DNA from: Thioalkalivibrio thiocyanodenitrificans ARhD 1
Lineage (GTDB): Bacteria > Pseudomonadota > Gammaproteobacteria > Ectothiorhodospirales > Ectothiorhodospiraceae
Direction: 5' to 3'
DNA: 64,000 bases
Assembly (NCBI RefSeq): GCF_000378965.1
Contig: NZ_KB900536.1
Location: forward strand, 1,852,052 to 1,916,051
The position numbers and the translations under genes are program-made. The notes below the pieces were generated by a model. It saw nothing but the letters and a program-made list of their open reading frames with translations. It was not told the origin of the DNA and did no database searches. Positions 49,755 to 56,902 of the stretch are shown here, piece by piece. The stretch's first letter is position 1; each line of letters begins with the position of its first letter.

Positions 49755-50726
49755 TCAGGGGCTTTGCGGGACCCGGCGCCAGCGCCCTGAGCAGTAGAGG
49801 TCACGCAGCCGGTCCCTGATCGATCTGTGATCCGCGAGCCGGCAGCGTGATCCGGAGGCAGGGCCATCGATGCGCGAGAACGCATCCACCAGCGCGGATA
49901 TGGCCACGTCGGAAGCCCTGAGCCGCACCGGAAACGGGTGGGTCTTCAGATTGCGGATCATCGGGTTGGTGTTGATTTCGTAGACCTGGGGCCGCCCCTG
50001 GAACAGTCCGAAATCCGCACGCCCGTACTCAATGGCGCCGAGGTCGAACGCGGGGCGTATCGCCTCGCCGAAGGCATTCTCCGAGACGATGCGGTACTCG
50101 TCGTCATAAAGTGCGCCACCGGCAATCCCCGACTCCCCGAACTTGGCCTTCCAGTGACCCTGGTGCGCGCACAGGGCGGGCACCATCCGCCCGCCCACCC
50201 GGTATACGGCCAGTTTGCGATAGAGGTTCTCGCGCACCGGCTCGGCCGCGTACTGGACGATCATCAGTTCCCGTACGGGCACAGCGCGGGCGATCTGCGC
50301 ATCGATTGCGACCCGGAGTTCCTCGGGAGTCGTCAGCAGGTCCGTCAACGGCCCGCGGTGGGCGGAGTCCGTACGCAGAAACACCGGATAAGCCGACGCC
50401 GGGGGCGATTCATCCACGGACCAGACGTTGAAATCGTTGAAACCCCGGGCGTGCAGCCGCCGCAACAACTGAAAACGGGAACGGAAGCGGCCCGGATCGT
50501 TCAGCACACGGGCGCCGAATTCACCGAGCTGGCGGTGGATGCGCCCCGCGCATTCCAGATCCCAGAAATGCAGCCGGTCGAGATCGGAGAAGATGTACGT
50601 CGCCCGGGGCAGGCTGCGCGCGCGGAACAGTCGTTCATAGGACATGACCCGAAAATCGAAGGCGCCGGACCGTTCCAGCGGCCGGTGGGTCCGGCAGTGT
50701 ATTCGGGTGGTAAAGAGAATGATCAT
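49755..50726 (-). CDS. ATP-grasp enzyme of the putative RiPP locus
   Basis: A 323-residue protein with ATP-grasp features: RTDSAHRGPLTDLL mid-domain, LMIVQYAAEPVRENLYRKLAVYRVGGRMVP, and the Mg-binding segment GRADFGLFQGRPQVYEINTNP (about 250-270) with Glu-x-Asn. The N-terminal about 100 residues are not a standard MvdC/MvdD-like start, so it is not an obvious graspetide ligase. It lies 100 bases after the 44-residue peptide gene, with a strong hairpin between. Likely role (inferred): amide or ester bond formation on the peptide. Confidence 0.75.
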   Translation of the reverse strand: MIILFTTRIHCRTHRPLERSGAFDFRVMSYERLFRARSLPRATYIFSDLDRLHFWDLECAGRIHRQLGEFGARVLNDPGRFRSRFQLLRRLHARGFNDFNVWSVDESPPASAYPVFLRTDSAHRGPLTDLLTTPEELRVAIDAQIARAVPVRELMIVQYAAEPVRENLYRKLAVYRVGGRMVPALCAHQGHWKAKFGESGIAGGALYDDEYRIVSENAFGEAIRPAFDLGAIEYGRADFGLFQGRPQVYEINTNPMIRNLKTHPFPVRLRASDVAISALVDAFSRIDGPASGSRCRLADHRSIRDRLRDLYCSGRWRRVPQSP

Positions 50727-50750
50727 CGGGTCGCGGCCCGGCTCCTTGCA

Positions 50751-50785
50751 GGAACCCCGATCCGGACCATGCCGGATCGGGGTCC
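50751..50785 (-). promoter_or_regulatory. Stable hairpin between peptide gene A and the ATP-grasp gene
   Basis: A perfect 11-base stem CCCCGATCCGG / CCGGATCGGGG with a 6-base loop at 50755-50782, extendable by three more pairs. There is no T-run. In many RiPP operons a stem-loop between the abundant precursor mRNA and the modifying-enzyme genes lowers downstream expression or protects the precursor message; that is my reading here. Confidence 0.7.
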
Positions 50786-50826
50786 GTCACCTGCCGGAGG
50801 CCCGGAGGGCGTACCCGGCAACACCC

Positions 50827-50961
50827 TTACTTCCGGGCAGTCGGTGCCCGGACAGTGGGCGGTGGCTTGGGTTCGCCGATCTTCGAGCCGATGGGGGCAG
50901 ACCGCTCGAGACGGAAGCCGAGCAGTCTGGCGGTGTCGAGTCTGATCACTTGACGGTGCAT
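50827..50961 (-). CDS. Putative RiPP precursor peptide A (44 residues)
   Basis: A small gene with AAGGGAGA six to seven bases before its ATG. The N-terminal half has VIRLDTARLLGFRLERS (5-21), nearly identical to the same part of peptides B and C at 52177 and 52570. The C-terminal half has IGSKIGEPKPPPTV (24-37), sharing GSKIG with them. Compared with B and C it lacks the central VRDxG...ITVKL segment. The tail is basic and Pro-rich without Cys, Tyr or His. Its promoter (51004-51032) has near copies before B and C. Function as a modified peptide is inferred from the repeats and the neighbouring HExxH and ATP-grasp genes. Confidence 0.82.
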   Translation of the reverse strand: MHRQVIRLDTARLLGFRLERSAPIGSKIGEPKPPPTVRAPTARK

Positions 50962-51003
50962 GACGTTCTCCCTTGGGGTATACAGCTCTCTGCTGCCCGA
51001 TTG

Positions 51004-51032
51004 TTCATATCAAACCGCCCCGAAAAACGCAA
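51004..51032 (-). promoter_or_regulatory. Promoter of peptide gene A
   Basis: Reading leftward: -35 TTGCGT (51032-51027), exactly 17 bases, -10 TATGAA (51009-51004). The predicted start is about 36 bases before the peptide ATG. The spacer end CGGGGCGGTTTGA matches those of peptides B and C, so the three promoters are homologous. Confidence 0.75.
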
Positions 51033-51118
51033 TATGGCAGCCCCTTGCGCGTGGAGCGGATCCTGACATTCGCTTAGCGGCCGACGCATGATTACGCGCG
51101 CGTGGACGCACAGGACGA

Positions 51119-52099
51119 TCATGCACCCACGGCATCCATGTACTCCCGTGCACCCTGCATCAACAGGTGACCGTGACGTGTGAGCCGGCCGTGCTCCGCC
51201 ACCACCCGATATCCCGCCTCGAAGTTCTCCCTGTCGGTTGCCGCCGCCGCCTTCGCCTCCCGGATCTCCTCCCCGGTCAGCACGCCGGATTCGAGCAACT
51301 GCTGCATGGCCCAGTGCATCCGCGCGGATACGAACGTTGCGTGATAGATGCCGTCCATGGGGCGGAGATCGGCGCGCAGCGGCGAGGGATAGATCTCCGC
51401 GTCGTCGTTCAGCACCAGCGCCTCCTCCGTACAGAAGGAAAAGAGCAGGCTGTGGGCACTCTCGTGCGCGATCACCTCCGCCATGGCGATCCGGGTTTCA
51501 TGCAGGGCGGCATTCAGGAACAGCGCGCCCCAGAGCTGGAAGTGCGACCCGCCATGGAACTCGCCGACGTCATCCGGCCCGCCGGCCACGCCCACCACCT
51601 CGTGCACGATGGCCTCCACCTCGGCGGCCAGCGACGGCGCGCCCTGGCGAAGCAGCGCCATGCCCTGCTCGAATCGTTGCGTGAAAGCGGCACCGACGCC
51701 GGCCTGCGGAACATTTACGGTCAGGTCCGGCCCCATGTCCGCACTCATGCGAAGACGGTAGCATTCACTGCGTTCCGATTCATCCAGCGGCCCCGCATGC
51801 TGGCCCTCCGGCAACGGCTGTTCTTCGGCAAGCCGCGTGTGATGTCCGGCCGCCGCAGCGAGATCATCGCTCAGGAGCGCGACCACCAGATCGTAGTAGC
51901 GGGCAAAGGTGGTGGCAGGATACCGTGTGCCCGACTCGAGCGCGATACAGAGTGCGTCCATCGCCCGGGCGTCGAAGGGGTAGCGGCCAAGGCATTGCTC
52001 CGAGACATGCCGCAGACTGCGCCCCAGCTCCACATACATGCGGCGATCCAGCGCGCGGGCGCGCGCCGGATCAGGCTGGAAATCGAAATGGATCGACAA
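51119..52099 (-). CDS. HExxH-motif putative peptide-modifying enzyme (2-oxoglutarate-type peptide beta-hydroxylase family)
   Basis: A 326-residue protein with metal-binding motif HESAH (212-216) preceded by GGSHFQLWGALFLNAAL (183-199), the layout of the HExxH family found with peptide-modification genes; members have been described as 2-oxoglutarate-dependent peptide beta-hydroxylases. A further His in GIYHATFVSARMHW (250-263) could be the third ligand. It starts at TTG 52099 with GGAG seven bases upstream. It lies between peptide genes B (upstream) and A (downstream), which makes them its likely substrates. Confidence 0.82.
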   Translation of the reverse strand: MSIHFDFQPDPARARALDRRMYVELGRSLRHVSEQCLGRYPFDARAMDALCIALESGTRYPATTFARYYDLVVALLSDDLAAAAGHHTRLAEEQPLPEGQHAGPLDESERSECYRLRMSADMGPDLTVNVPQAGVGAAFTQRFEQGMALLRQGAPSLAAEVEAIVHEVVGVAGGPDDVGEFHGGSHFQLWGALFLNAALHETRIAMAEVIAHESAHSLLFSFCTEEALVLNDDAEIYPSPLRADLRPMDGIYHATFVSARMHWAMQQLLESGVLTGEEIREAKAAAATDRENFEAGYRVVAEHGRLTRHGHLLMQGAREYMDAVGA

Positions 52100-52129
52100 C
52101 GACCGGCTCCAATGGGGTCAGAACAAGGC

Positions 52130-52151
52130 AAAAGGCGCCCCAAGAGGCGCC
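52130..52151 (-). terminator. Terminator or attenuator between peptide gene B and the HExxH gene
   Basis: On the minus strand GGCGCC (52151-52146), six loop bases, GGCGCC (52139-52134), then TTTT. The six-base stem is all G-C and is followed by four T. It would limit read-through from the strong peptide B promoter into the enzyme gene. Confidence 0.6.
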
Positions 52152-52176
52152 CCGAAAGTTACGGTGCTCAGCCCTT

Positions 52177-52350
52177 CTACCGCCCGGGCTTGACGCCGAC
52201 CTTCCCATTCCCGATCTTGCTGCCCAGCTTCACGGTGATGTCGCCTCCCCTGGAGCCGCGCTTCACGCCGTTGTCACGCACGGTAAACGCGCCCTGGAGA
52301 CGGAAGCCGAGCAACCTGGCAGTGTCGAGCTTGACTTGGGGATGATTCAT
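52177..52350 (-). CDS. Putative RiPP precursor peptide B (57 residues)
   Basis: It starts MNHPQVKLDTARLLGFRL (1-18), then GAFTVRDNGVKRGS (20-33), ITVKLGSKIGNGKVGVKP (38-55) and a final GR. It aligns with peptide C along its whole length (MNHP, LDTxRLLGFRL, GAxxVRDxGxK, ITVKLGSKIG, GVK) and with A at both ends. The core is rich in Lys and Gly with Thr and Ser, and has no Cys. A seven-codon longer start exists, but ATG 52350 corresponds to the start of C. GAGG and AGGA precede it. Own promoter at 52393-52421. Confidence 0.82.
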   Translation of the reverse strand: MNHPQVKLDTARLLGFRLQGAFTVRDNGVKRGSRGGDITVKLGSKIGNGKVGVKPGR

Positions 52351-52392
52351 CAGTCCTATCCTCGGATTCATACAGGTCCACCCTGCCGGTTG

Positions 52393-52421
52393 TTCATATC
52401 AAAGCGGCCCAGGCATTGCAA
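52393..52421 (-). promoter_or_regulatory. Promoter of peptide gene B
   Basis: Reading leftward: -35 TTGCAA (52421-52416), 17 bases, -10 TATGAA (52398-52393). The predicted start is about 36 bases before ATG 52350. The spacer CTGGGCCGCTTTGA is shared with the peptide C promoter and partly with A. Confidence 0.77.
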
Positions 52422-52569
52422 GGCGGCAGACCATGGAACTGCGCCACCCCTCTGTGCGGCAGATCCGAACCACATGGCACGATATGGCCACGGGAATCCG
52501 GGCAAGAACCAGGAAGCGCCCGGAAGGGCATCCGGCATGGGCACGCGCCGGCTCGATCTGCGCACCAGG

Positions 52570-52734
52570 CTAGAATTTGACGCCCGGCTTCCCGCCTATC
52601 TTGCTTCCAAGTTTGACAGTAATCTCGTGCTCCCCGGAGGTGCCCTTCCTGCCCTTGTCACGCACGGCGCACGCCCCGTGAAGGCGGAAGCCGAGCAATC
52701 TGGTGGTATCGAGCTTGACTGCGGGATGATTCAT
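52570..52734 (-). CDS. Putative RiPP precursor peptide C (54 residues)
   Basis: It starts MNHPAVKLDTTRLLGFRL (1-18), then GACAVRDKGRKGTSGEHE (20-37), ITVKLGSKIGGKPGVKF (38-54). It closely matches peptide B but has a Cys at 22 and a shorter tail ending KF. GGAG lies about eight bases before ATG 52734. The open frame continues upstream without similarity, so this start is preferred. It has its own promoter (52779-52807). It follows a glycosyltransferase gene in the same direction. Confidence 0.82.
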   Translation of the reverse strand: MNHPAVKLDTTRLLGFRLHGACAVRDKGRKGTSGEHEITVKLGSKIGGKPGVKF

Positions 52735-52778
52735 GGGTCTCTCCTCACGGGTTTCAGGCAGGCCTGCCCTGCCGGTCG

Positions 52779-52807
52779 TTATTACCAAACCGGCCCAGGC
52801 GATGCAA
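52779..52807 (-). promoter_or_regulatory. Promoter of peptide gene C
   Basis: Reading leftward: -35 TTGCAT (52807-52802), 17 bases, -10 TAATAA (52784-52779). The predicted start is about 38 bases before ATG 52734. The spacer CGCCTGGGCCGGTTTGG is closely related to that of peptide B. Confidence 0.77.
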
Positions 52808-52980
52808 GCCCGCCTTTCACGACCCTCGCCGGTCGAGTCGGCCACCCGTCCCCCGGCCGGGCCGGGAACGAAACGTCCGAACCGGATCCGGATCATCGGC
52901 AGGCGAAGATCACCGGGACGGGCCGATCAAGCGCCTTCCTGAGATCCCCATCCGGTTGGCGCCCATCCTCGCGGACCCCA

Positions 52981-53931
52981 TCAGGAGGGCCCCTGGCCCC
53001 CGCGACCGGACACGTATATGGAAAGGCAACCGATGTATGCGCTCAGCAACAGGAAAGGCATCAACAGCAGCGCCTTTCTCATCGCAACGCGTTCCTCGCC
53101 GGAGGCGAACTTCACAATGTTCGTGGACGCCCTGAACGCTGACGACAAATACACGCGGAGCAGCCTGAGCGGAGAACGGCGGACGTCGACGCGCACGCGC
53201 CAGGCATCCCTGCGGGCACGCCGGAACTGGTCCGCCAGCGCCGGAAGCATCCTCCCTGGATACCTGTGCAGCGACATGATCTGCGGAGCCCAGACCGGAC
53301 GACCACATGTGGCCGCTGCCCTCCTGTTGAACAGGGAGTCCTCCGCGACTCGCAGATCCTCCCTGAACAGGCCATGCCTCTCAAAGGCCGTCCTGCAGTA
53401 GGAAACCCCGTGCCGGCTGGCACCGTCTTCGGGAATCTCGGGCATACGGCGTGCATGGATCAGACAATAAGCCGCCCAGCTGACCAGCGATATCCGTCCG
53501 CTCTCATCGGCAGCCGGCCGAAGCGATGACGCCACCATGCAATGCCCCCGATGATGCAGATTCAGGCGGTGACGAAGCCAGTCGGGCGTCGCCATGCAAT
53601 CCGCCGCCAGGAAAGCGATCACCGGACCGGTTGCGTGAAGTATGCCGATGTTGCGCGCACCGCCCGGCAGGCACCTCCCCGGCGATTCCACCAGAATGAT
53701 TCGATCCAGGCAGCCCCGAAGCAAGGGCCCCACACTTCCCGCGCCGGTGTTGACCACGATCACCTCGGCATGTCCGCCCTGTTTCAGAATGGACTCCACC
53801 GCACTGACGATGCACGGTTGCGAATCGACCGAAATCACAACCACGGACACGTGCGGGTCCTTCTCCACCTCGCACCCGATACGCGTATCCAGGACTCTGG
53901 ACCGGCTTTCTTTCATCTGCGGCACATCCAT
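52981..53931 (-). CDS. Family 2 glycosyltransferase with C-terminal membrane helix
   Basis: A 316-residue GT-A fold protein: VSVVVISVDSQPCIVSAVESIL (about 28-49), the nucleotide-sugar site around PGRCLPGGARNIGILHATG (84-102) and IAFLAADCMATPDWL, where AAD replaces the usual DxD. A hydrophobic helix near the C-terminus (about 288-308) suggests membrane attachment. It lies upstream of peptide gene C in the same direction, separated by about 250 bases with the peptide promoter. It could glycosylate the peptide or a cell-surface glycan; I cannot tell which. Confidence 0.8.
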   Translation of the reverse strand: MDVPQMKESRSRVLDTRIGCEVEKDPHVSVVVISVDSQPCIVSAVESILKQGGHAEVIVVNTGAGSVGPLLRGCLDRIILVESPGRCLPGGARNIGILHATGPVIAFLAADCMATPDWLRHRLNLHHRGHCMVASSLRPAADESGRISLVSWAAYCLIHARRMPEIPEDGASRHGVSYCRTAFERHGLFREDLRVAEDSLFNRRAAATCGRPVWAPQIMSLHRYPGRMLPALADQFRRARRDAWRVRVDVRRSPLRLLRVYLSSAFRASTNIVKFASGEERVAMRKALLLMPFLLLSAYIGCLSIYVSGRGGQGPS

Positions 53932-54997: not shown

Positions 54998-55394
54998 GAC
55001 CGGCCGATGACCCTGGCGAGAAGGCGGAATGAAAGGTGGTGTGATGAGAATGTATGGGGGTATCGCCGCCAGGGCAACCGGTGTGCGGCGCCCGCGTGTG
55101 CCGATCACGGGGAGGCCCCTCTTCCGCCACCTCGACCCGGCAGGCCCCCGGTCAGGCCGGCGGCCGAATCGAATGCGGATCGGGCAGGATCCGCCCGCGC
55201 AGATCCTCGCTCGCGGAGGATCCCGGACAGGGAGCCGCCCGACGCGCCGCGGCCACAGCGATTGACAAGCTCGACGCGTTCGGTTACCTAGTTCTCGCAT
55301 GCACTTGGAACCAGAGAATGCCTGACGCGCGTGCTCGACCGTGTCTGGGAAGGCTTGGCCGCAATCCGGCCTCCACGACAAACTGAATGCACAC
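54998..55394. other. Divergent regulatory region of the accessory cluster
   Basis: A gap of about 397 bases between the leftward glycosyltransferase/peptide arm and the rightward PqqD operon. It contains the plus-strand promoter at 55262-55290 and GC-rich inverted segments such as GGATCCGCCCGCGCAGATCC (about 55189-55208). I found no fourth copy of the peptide gene or of its promoter here. Confidence 0.5.
55262..55290 (+). promoter_or_regulatory. Putative sigma70 promoter of the PqqD operon
   Basis: A perfect -35 TTGACA (55262-55267), a 17-base spacer, then TACCTA (55285-55290) as a weak -10. The predicted start lies about 100 bases before the PqqD-like ATG. Confidence 0.55.
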
Positions 55395-55850
55395 ATGACT
55401 CCGACTGACCGCTATCGTGTACGCACCCCCGGTATTGTCCATGAACACATTGACGACGAAGTCGTCGTCATCGACATGGAGAGCGGCGCCTACTACAGCC
55501 TGGTGCGCGAAAGCGCGCTGGCCTGGCAGTCCCTGGATCTGGGTCTGTCTGGCGCCGGCATTGCGGCAGCGGTCGGCGCGTCCTATGAAGGCGATCAGGG
55601 CGAGATCGAGGCATCGGTGTTCTCCCTGCTGCAGCAACTGGTTGACGAAGGACTGGTCGAGGTCAGTGACCGTCCGGGGATGACTGAAGGCACCCACGAG
55701 GGAATACCCGATCAGGCCGCTCGGGCACCTTTCCAGGGTTGCGGGCTCGAGCGGTTCAATGACATGCAGGACCTTCTCCTGCTCGACCCGATTCATGATG
55801 TGGACGAATCCGGATGGCCGTCGCGTGAACGGGAGGACGTCGGGAACTGA
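55395..55850 (+). CDS. PqqD family peptide chaperone with an extended C-terminal tail
   Basis: A 151-residue protein. Residues about 13-92 are a PqqD-type RiPP-recognition domain: IVHEHIDDEVVVIDMESGAYY, SLVRESALAWQSL and VFSLLQQLVDEGLVEV. Residues 93-151 form a tail absent from plain PqqD, including LERFNDMQDLLLLDPIHDVD and GWP (118-142), which looks like a conserved motif rather than random linker. I recall such proteins being grouped in the HPr-rel-A system beside HprK-related kinases; the kinase gene follows by 17 bases. Likely role: binding a peptide or presenting the tail for modification. Confidence 0.8.
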   Translation: MTPTDRYRVRTPGIVHEHIDDEVVVIDMESGAYYSLVRESALAWQSLDLGLSGAGIAAAVGASYEGDQGEIEASVFSLLQQLVDEGLVEVSDRPGMTEGTHEGIPDQAARAPFQGCGLERFNDMQDLLLLDPIHDVDESGWPSREREDVGN

Positions 55851-55867
55851 GCCCCCGGCACAGCCTC

Positions 55868-56902
55868 ATGTCCCCCCGCCTGGTGAACACGGCGCCGGAC
55901 CGGTTCTTTCAAGCCGCTTCCGAGGCATACGGGCATGCGGCGAGGGGCGGGTCCGTCCACCGGGACTACCGGATCCACCGCTGGACACTCAGACTGCGCT
56001 TCACTTCCACCGACCTCGCGGAAGCATTGACCCCGGCCATTGACCACCTGCGGGTCGAAGGCGCGCGGCAGATCGACTTCGAGATCCGGTGCTGGCACGA
56101 CCAGGTGCCCGGCAGACCGATGCCTGCAATGCCCTGGAACAACACCGATATCCTTGCGCAGGGCCACATCCGGGGATTCAACGAAGGTCCTTTCCGCACG
56201 GTCTACCAGCATGGAACCGACGCCTTGAACATGATCGACCTGGAACGGGGCACGGGGCTTTTCTGGGTCAGGGATCTGCAGCTGCCCGATTGGGAGAAGG
56301 CCGCCCCACTGCGCAATCTGCTTCACTGGTGGTCACAGGAACACGGACTGCAGTTCATGCACGCCGCGGCCGTCGGCGAGGGCGGCGACTGCGTGCTGAT
56401 CGTCGGCCCCGGGGGGTCAGGCAAATCGACGACCGCGCTGGCAGCACTGATGGCCGGCATGGACTATGCGGGCGACGACTACGTGCTGCTGGAGACGGGC
56501 GAGGCGCCCCGGGTTCATGCACTGTATGCCAGCGCCAAACTCGAACCGCAGCAGCTGGGGCGTTTTCCGGAACTCGGGCCCCATGCGCGCCATCAGGGTG
56601 GCGACAAGACGATCCTGATGATCGCATCCATTCCGGGCCGGCAGATGGCGCACCCCATGCGTATACGGGCGGTGCTCGTTCCACGCGTTACCGGTGGCCC
56701 CGTAACCCGGATCACCGGGTTGAACGGCGGAGAGGCATTGCGGGCACTCGCGCCCAGCACCCTGTTCCAGTTGCCCGGAGGCCGGCACCATGCCTTCCGC
56801 CAGTTGTCGGCGCTGGCGCGTCGCCTTCCCTGTCACCGTCTGGAACTCGGCACCGAGATGCCCGGCGTTGTGTCAGCCCTTCGGCAGGCGCTGCGGCCAT
56901 GA
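55868..56902 (+). CDS. HprK-related kinase
   Basis: A 344-residue protein whose C-terminal half resembles the HPr serine kinase/PEP carboxykinase fold: LQFMHAAAVGEGG (about 161-173), P-loop VLIVGPGGSGKSTTALAAL (about 177-195) and YAGDDYVLLETGE. The N-terminal 150 residues are not standard HprK. Kinases of this type occur next to PqqD-like and nucleotidyltransferase-like genes, as here, and have been proposed to act in peptide modification; the substrate is unknown. Overlaps the next glycosyltransferase by ATGA. Confidence 0.8.
   Translation: MSPRLVNTAPDRFFQAASEAYGHAARGGSVHRDYRIHRWTLRLRFTSTDLAEALTPAIDHLRVEGARQIDFEIRCWHDQVPGRPMPAMPWNNTDILAQGHIRGFNEGPFRTVYQHGTDALNMIDLERGTGLFWVRDLQLPDWEKAAPLRNLLHWWSQEHGLQFMHAAAVGEGGDCVLIVGPGGSGKSTTALAALMAGMDYAGDDYVLLETGEAPRVHALYASAKLEPQQLGRFPELGPHARHQGGDKTILMIASIPGRQMAHPMRIRAVLVPRVTGGPVTRITGLNGGEALRALAPSTLFQLPGGRHHAFRQLSALARRLPCHRLELGTEMPGVVSALRQALRP

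Follow-up and report, generated by a model that had tools for sequence, protein, structure and literature searches.

A candidate ribosomal peptide cassette of short lysine-glycine repeat precursors, an aKG-HExxH-type enzyme and an ATP-grasp ligase in Thioalkalivibrio thiocyanodenitrificans

A stretch of 64,000 nucleotides of Thioalkalivibrio thiocyanodenitrificans ARhD 1 (contig NZ_KB900536.1, positions 1,852,052 to 1,916,051; hereafter the window) carries on its minus strand three short paralogous genes grouped with the genes of a HExxH-motif protein and of an ATP-grasp enzyme. We propose that they form a three-part cassette for a ribosomally synthesised and post-translationally modified peptide (RiPP), in which lysine-glycine units of the precursors are hydroxylated by the HExxH enzyme and then receive a small carboxylic or amino acid from a ligase that is exchangeable; we give this reading a probability of about 0.6. 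Its parts differ in strength. The locus is very probably a RiPP locus, while the attachment of an external carboxylate by the ligase is put forward tentatively. The cassette is recognised by the homology of its enzymes, by their linkage to the precursor genes, by a conserved leader and by a repeated core.

In the direction of transcription (52734 to 49755), the open reading frames (ORFs) of the locus follow the order P1, P2, HExxH gene, P3, ATP-grasp gene. Precursor P1 (52570-52734, 54 amino acids) has the leader KLDTTRLLGFRL and a core with KLGSKIGGKPGVK, and P2 (52177-52350, 57 amino acids) the leader KLDTARLLGFRL and a core with KLGSKIGNGKVGVK. P3 (50827-50961, 44 amino acids) sits between the HExxH and ATP-grasp genes. 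The ORFs listed for P1 and P2 begin further upstream; we chose inner ATGs as starts because the shared leader block and a purine-rich stretch are located there. A first-pass annotation of this DNA had reported three minus-strand genes of 44, 57 and 54 codons sharing LDT(A/T)RLLGFRL and GSKIG, and both the ORFs and the alignment bear it out: P1 and P2 are 72% identical, the LDTARLLGFRL block and GSKIG are also present in P3, and GSKIG occupies residues 43-47 of P1 and P2 and residues 25-29 of the 44 of P3. Scanned against Pfam and NCBIfam, the precursors returned nothing useful (one chance-level Pfam line). Nonsynonymous (dN) and synonymous (dS) divergence from the nearest relative (locus L005) were 0.055 and 0.116 for P3 (9 changes only) and 0.040 and 0.184 for P2 (12 changes), which leans towards coding, weakly with so few sites. 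Here and below, L and G numbers denote the loci and genomes of our collection.

The leader consensus of the family is xLDxx[K/R]LLGFR, seen in the short ORFs at HExxH loci as xLDxxKLLGF. Over the first 16 loci the leader motif, itself partly derived from them, occurred 17 times in the 46.6 kb lying at most 1.5 kb from the HExxH gene versus 0 times in the 184 kb farther out. A narrower motif fixed beforehand matched 3 ORFs, at 10-138 bp from the HExxH gene, in 10 loci fetched via HExxH alone; the block-shuffled DNA control gave 5 matches per 4.69 Mb. The clustering of the leader motif near HExxH genes is not chance, and the leader is the best candidate for the recognition element of the enzymes.

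The first-pass annotation had also read a leader and a core into these peptides, with variable sequence outside the shared N-terminal block and GSKIG. The conserved block stands, but the C-terminal part is not freely variable: it is built of a repeated unit, GxK[I/V]GxK, present once to several times per core. In 29 cores taken after the leader, KxG was counted 74 times versus 23.5 in shuffles and KxG(0-2)K 61 times versus 6.8, the former being present in 28 and the latter in 26 cores. Two near-copies from L005, L081, a possible second ORF of L083, the L052 fragment and a weak candidate of L059 were omitted from these statistics. L081 was joined later, and in the resulting set of 30 precursors the commonest letters of the unit are G-[A/L]-K-[I/V]-G-x-K, with at least two GxKxG units in 19 precursors and fewer than two in 11. 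In seven of the 30, Asp and Glu are missing from the whole segment between the first unit and the C-terminus; acidic residues show no conserved position, and the terminal residues vary. The residues kept in the core are lysine and glycine, not acidic ones. No poly-Gln or ARMD motif was found in the precursors examined.

The product of the HExxH gene (51119-52099, minus strand, 326 amino acids, TTG start in the ORF list) matches TIGR04267, the model of aKG-HExxH (alpha-ketoglutarate) peptide beta-hydroxylases, with an E-value of 6.6e-34 and 117.4 bits for a curated cutoff of 40. It contains HESAH and PSPLRxDxRPxxGxxHAxF motifs. A profile built from five of its relatives recovered ChlH (8s5f) in the PDB at 8.1e-8, and the alignment with ChlH retains HExxH and the PSPxRxDxRPxxGxxHA stretch. 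We take the HExxH and RxDxRPxxGxxH residues to be iron or cofactor ligands. The source genome (3.75 Mb, 3 contigs) holds a single HExxH gene of this type at an E-value threshold of 0.001, that of the window. HExxH relatives acting in RiPP pathways hydroxylate Asp or His, Gln, or ortho-Tyr, and can also cut the backbone, as described in the available parts of PMC12636437, PMC12707348 and PMC12257519, BpmH being only predicted in the last of these. By analogy with these relatives, the enzyme of the window probably hydroxylates the lysine-glycine units of the core.

The neighbouring gene (49755-50726, minus strand, 323 amino acids) encodes a protein with a YGRADF...YEINTNP stretch. This protein had no Pfam match and no NCBIfam match above cutoff. 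Searched against the PDB, a profile of its family retrieved five sequences with an E-value of at most 10, namely four D-Ala-D-Ala ligases and LysX, labelled an S6-modification protein, with a best E-value of 0.0027. Profile comparison gave a probability of 40 for E. coli DdlB, 6 for RimK and nil for the cyanophycin-like group. As the sequence link to known ATP-grasp enzymes is thin, the assignment rests on the predicted fold. An AlphaFold2 model computed from eleven sequences reached a mean local confidence (pLDDT) of 79.8 and a predicted template-modelling score (pTM) of 0.80, the single sequence giving a pLDDT of just 30.8. The nine best structural alignments of the model were with RimK, LysX and ArgX (Z 16.6-15.1, RimK at 16.6; 12-16% identity), compared with a Z of 13.9 for Ddl and of 13.5 for PsnB. 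The top Foldseek matches were likewise ATP-grasp ligases, with PruB at rank 41. D238, E250, N252, N254 and P255 are invariant across the family, and the D and ExN of the stretch fit the metal site of ATP-grasp enzymes (D...ExNxNP, Mg-binding). The protein is thus confirmed as an ATP-grasp enzyme by its predicted fold. Members of the family were also seen on viral contigs (L090-L098), with a tandem pair in L090 and some near glycosyltransferase-like ORFs identified by eye; HExxH was present in none of these contig stretches. Two paralogues lie elsewhere in the genome of the window (L063 and L064, C1 at about 2138600 and 3114000), with no precursor-like ORF in the 10-kb stretches around them.

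Precursor models were searched in 96 relatives, in the order's 47 genomes, a set that overlaps the former, and in 369 genomes of the class. Every genome with a convincing match (G000, G001, G030, G019, G185 and G391) also holds the HExxH gene. The peptides were thus not seen widespread without the enzymes, which supports the RiPP locus of an unrecognised class proposed in the first-pass annotation. The nearest named relative, a Thioalkalivibrio metagenome assembly (G001, locus L005), has a HExxH protein 92% identical to that of the window and carries two of the three precursors. G030 has two precursors of two units each, with HExxH and ATP-grasp 60% identical to the window's; in G019 a multi-unit precursor is followed by HExxH and then by an ATP-grasp gene at 52% identity. 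G185 and G391 were also found by the precursor models, the ATP-grasp gene beside the precursor of G391 being of the cyanophycin-synthetase type. A precursor with a GAKIG unit was found in L011 (7822-7959), with no relatives of the window's enzymes within the 16-kb stretch around it; the same genome has a complete cassette at a distance of about 0.85 Mb. A match in G161 was rejected as chance: it spans 16 residues with an E-value of 0.014, lies beside flagellar-looking genes and comes from a genome without a HExxH match.

Searches with HExxH alone gave hits in 6 of the 369 class genomes, 8 of 398 phylum genomes (some shared) and, within a single family belonging to another class, 12 of 295 genomes; we take this family for alphaproteobacterial. 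Related cassettes are sporadic in distant Proteobacteria. A leader-bearing short ORF is present at 22 of 26 HExxH loci and at 16 of the 20 fetched via HExxH alone (L050-L059, L080-L089). Twelve of these 16 were found by the strict motif in short ORFs and three (L083, L086, L088) by eye with a relaxed motif; L081 satisfies the strict motif too, but there it lies within a longer open frame, which was outside the range of the scan. L052 begins at a contig edge, with a core-like end, SRIGNKTGNKGD, visible. A carboxylate-activating enzyme lies near HExxH in 23 of the 26 loci and in 17 of the 20. Six of the 26 came to light through the precursor search or in conjunction with it, and the set contains close pairs (window/L005, L054/L056), so that it does not represent 26 independent events. 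At L082 (5733-6967), six tandem precursors with near-constant leaders and different cores adjoin one HExxH gene and two ATP-grasp genes. Viral contigs yielded no relatives of either the precursors or HExxH. On plasmids there were four distant HExxH relatives, one of them via a second query; those on Xenorhabdus and Pantoea plasmids (L099, L100) are adjacent to an MFS transporter gene or separated from it by a single gene, and in these two loci we saw no annotated ATP-grasp gene and recognised no clear precursor. In L100 an upstream ORF of 23 residues contains SKLL.

The ligases over the 26 loci fall into a RimK-like type (17 loci), a cyanophycin-synthetase-like type (3) and an adenylating type (3), with none seen in the last 3. 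In L035, L050 and L087 the replacement ligase is similar to the ATP-grasp portion of cyanophycin synthetase, the one in L050 being present as two ORFs. Adenylating enzymes adjoin HExxH at L057 (2467-4992), L058 (3518-5017) and L088 (3326-4735), one of them with carrier and thioesterase domains, giving a mix of ribosomal and nonribosomal peptide synthetase (NRPS)-like genes. By hand count over 23 HExxH-bearing genomes, 18 of 25 members of the ATP-grasp family are located at HExxH loci. A tree of 28 HExxH proteins grouped L034, L035 and L050 (support 98/96) and joined L053 with L087 (97/88), and a minimum of 4 label changes was counted for the RimK-like group on starred branches, with a warning about long branches, L053 with L087 among them. 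Since RimK-like and cyanophycin-like loci occur within the same supported groups, the ligase was probably exchanged.

From these observations we infer which substrate each enzyme acts on, the site, the order of steps and the attached group. The N-terminal leader xLDxx[K/R]LLGFR would recruit the enzymes; the HExxH enzyme, dependent on Fe(II) and alpha-ketoglutarate, would hydroxylate residues in the GxK[I/V]GxK units; and the ATP-dependent ligase would then activate a carboxylate and couple it to the peptide, most likely onto a core lysine or the new hydroxyl. The frequency of carboxylate-activating enzymes near HExxH suggests that a second step follows, in which an amide or ester bond is made.

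Several observations weigh against this proposal. No precursor was found at L058 and L089, and L059 has only a weak candidate; L059, L084 and L089 have HExxH with no ligase seen, L084 coming from a genome whose other locus is L082, with its run of six precursor genes and its pair of ATP-grasp genes. L053 is without a KxG unit, and L053, L057 and L088 are without KxG(0-2)K. The join of L053 and L087 was flagged as a possible long-branch effect. The ATP-grasp family occurs without HExxH in phage contigs, which suggests another role for it, and as paralogues in the genome of the window itself. Reading the neighbours by eye, without a systematic protease search, revealed no protease or exporter that is conserved. 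A crude motif check placed ABC-type ATPases close to 3 of 22 loci; the same script missed window glycosyltransferases that Pfam detects and is therefore insensitive, so that only its positives count. Lastly, RimK, LysX and ArgX activate the carboxylate of a protein, not that of the added group.

This last point bears on what the ligase would join. A RimK-like fold would favour the addition of amino acids to a peptide carboxylate, and one alternative is that the ATP-grasp enzyme activates the C-terminus or a side chain of the peptide and adds free amino acids, the HExxH enzyme trimming or hydroxylating. RimK, LysX and ArgX do provide the nine best structural matches (Z 15.1-16.6; Ddl 13.9, PsnB 13.5), and the ligases of L035, L050 and L087 resemble part of cyanophycin synthetase, a chain-extending ligase. 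However, neither the final residues nor the acidic residues of the 30 precursors are conserved, adenylating enzymes take the place of the ligase in three loci, and a fold in common shows no function; we consider this alternative improbable, though it is the likeliest of the rivals. Proteins with adenylation, carrier and thioesterase domains normally activate a free carboxylic acid, and the variant of this type found here speaks for the loading of a small acid on the peptide, which we tentatively prefer to an addition of amino acids to a peptide carboxylate. An internal amide or ester, from a lysine or new hydroxyl to an acidic side chain as in graspetides, has a precedent in that lysine is accepted as donor there, according to the available part of PMC13097080, and PsnB is among the structural matches. 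Nevertheless, the lack of a conserved acidic acceptor, with 7 of the 30 precursors devoid of Asp and Glu from the first unit onwards, makes such a bond unlikely, and none of the five PDB profile matches was named a graspetide synthetase.

The HExxH enzyme could also act on the backbone. PflC and PosC, of the same family, cleave it oxidatively and leave an amide, as reported in the part of PMC12636437 available, and hydroxylation beside the conserved glycine, yielding short amidated peptides capped by the ligase, would fit the multi-unit cores and the protease not noticed by eye. The precursors have no ARMD motif, however, and 11 of 30 have fewer than two GxKxG units; we regard oxidative cutting as unlikely, slightly more plausible than the graspetide-like bond. 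Very improbable, in our view, is a peptide that decorates a surface polysaccharide with glycosyltransferases as partners. Glycosyltransferase and rhamnose genes do lie near the window locus, L012 has sugar transferase and glycosyltransferase-like ORFs, and sugar- or glycosyltransferase-like ORFs were seen by eye at L020, L034 and L052, but L050, L055, L080 and L084 lie among other kinds of genes (by eye; for L084 also one Pfam scan). Equally improbable are basic housekeeping peptides next to an ordinary protease: HExxH doubles as a metalloprotease motif and PflC is able to hydrolyse peptides (PMC12636437, part available), yet the TIGR04267 match, the conserved leader and repeats and the linkage to ligases speak against it.

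The proposed hydroxylation and ligation cassette was compared with known systems. In the pfl and pos clusters of Pseudomonas, too, a small precursor is the substrate of an alpha-ketoglutarate HExxH enzyme, and no protease gene was detected nearby; they differ in a nitrile-hydratase-like leader, a core with consecutive Gln and ARMD, and MNIO-nitroreductase and GNAT partners (PMC12636437, part available). No MNIO-nitroreductase partner of that type is among the annotated genes of the window, and the term ATP-grasp is absent from the main text of that paper. ChlH/ChlBH (8s5f) and BipH/BpmH of biphenomycin belong by name to the same enzyme family, ChlH having HExxH and PSPxRxDxRPxxGxxHA in common with ours, but their pathways, in the portions of the sources available, use radical SAM or MNIO enzymes, whereas a ligase is the neighbour here. 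Graspetides (microviridin, plesiocin; PsnB, 7drm) likewise combine a ribosomal precursor with an ATP-grasp enzyme and sometimes a hydroxylase, oxygenase-associated groups being described in the available part of PMC13097080; the cassette differs in its cores without a conserved acidic acceptor and in a ligase profile that touches Ddl and LysX by sequence. TIGR04267 is not named among the families linked to graspetide ATP-grasp enzymes in Table 1 or the text searched of PMC8939145, which, in the same portion, reports zincin-superfamily peptidases in loci of candidate-phyla bacteria; HEXXH is used for a leader protease in the accessible text of PMC13039773, and PMC13174530 contributed nothing further. 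RimK, LysX and ArgX have the same ligase fold, but here the ligase gene accompanies those of a short precursor and of a hydroxylase. No earlier description of the combination was found in the literature covered, which excludes most subscription papers and so leaves absence unproven; we rate the cassette as a RiPP system in its general plan, whose pair of enzymes and core have no earlier description in the literature searched.

Each precursor gene of the window is preceded by a 21-bp cis element on the minus strand: CGGTTTGGTAATAACGACCGG (52772-52792) upstream of P1, the variant CGCTTTGATATGAACAACCGG (52386-52406) upstream of P2 and CGGTTTGATATGAACAATCGG (50997-51017) upstream of P3. The search pattern, derived from the sites themselves and not covering the P2 variant, has two occurrences in the whole source genome, which precede P1 and P3, and another two in the nearest relative, ahead of both its precursors. 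It is absent from the G019 and G030 genomes, and the reversed pattern had 0 occurrences across the four genomes searched.

Among the neighbours that the first-pass annotation had named, the HExxH and ATP-grasp genes were upheld, by TIGR04267 and by predicted fold. The glycosyltransferase is present, of family 2 by Pfam and NCBIfam scans (52981-53931, upstream of P1), but was dropped from the cassette as it is not at the same place in relatives. Past it lie a second glycosyltransferase, a PqqD-like protein and an HPr-kinase-like protein (weak matches only), the last two adjoining the glycosyltransferases at 55341-56902 on the plus strand; additional glycosyltransferases and rhamnose genes lie in the more distant surroundings. 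PqqD-like ORFs were also read by eye close to L052 and L053. A literature search on the PqqD- and HPr-kinase-like neighbours yielded nothing relevant.

That no conserved exporter or protease was noticed raises the question of whether the product acts inside the cell. With less confidence than the cassette itself, and below even odds, we suggest a novel class of RiPP: guided by the leader, the HExxH hydroxylase would prepare the repeated lysine units of GxK[I/V]GxK type, and interchangeable carboxylate-activating ligases (RimK-like or cyanophycin-synthetase-like ATP-grasp enzymes, or NRPS-type adenylation-carrier-thioesterase enzymes) would load a small acid per unit; if true, one ribosomal scaffold would be acylated by unrelated enzyme types. 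If the proposed reading is right, the cassette represents a class of peptides not described before, made by a minimal machinery of three genes, whose leader and core unit would ease its finding elsewhere. It would also offer a direct test of the action of HExxH hydroxylases on lysine-rich cores and may provide a route to lysine or hydroxyl acylation in RiPP chemistry.

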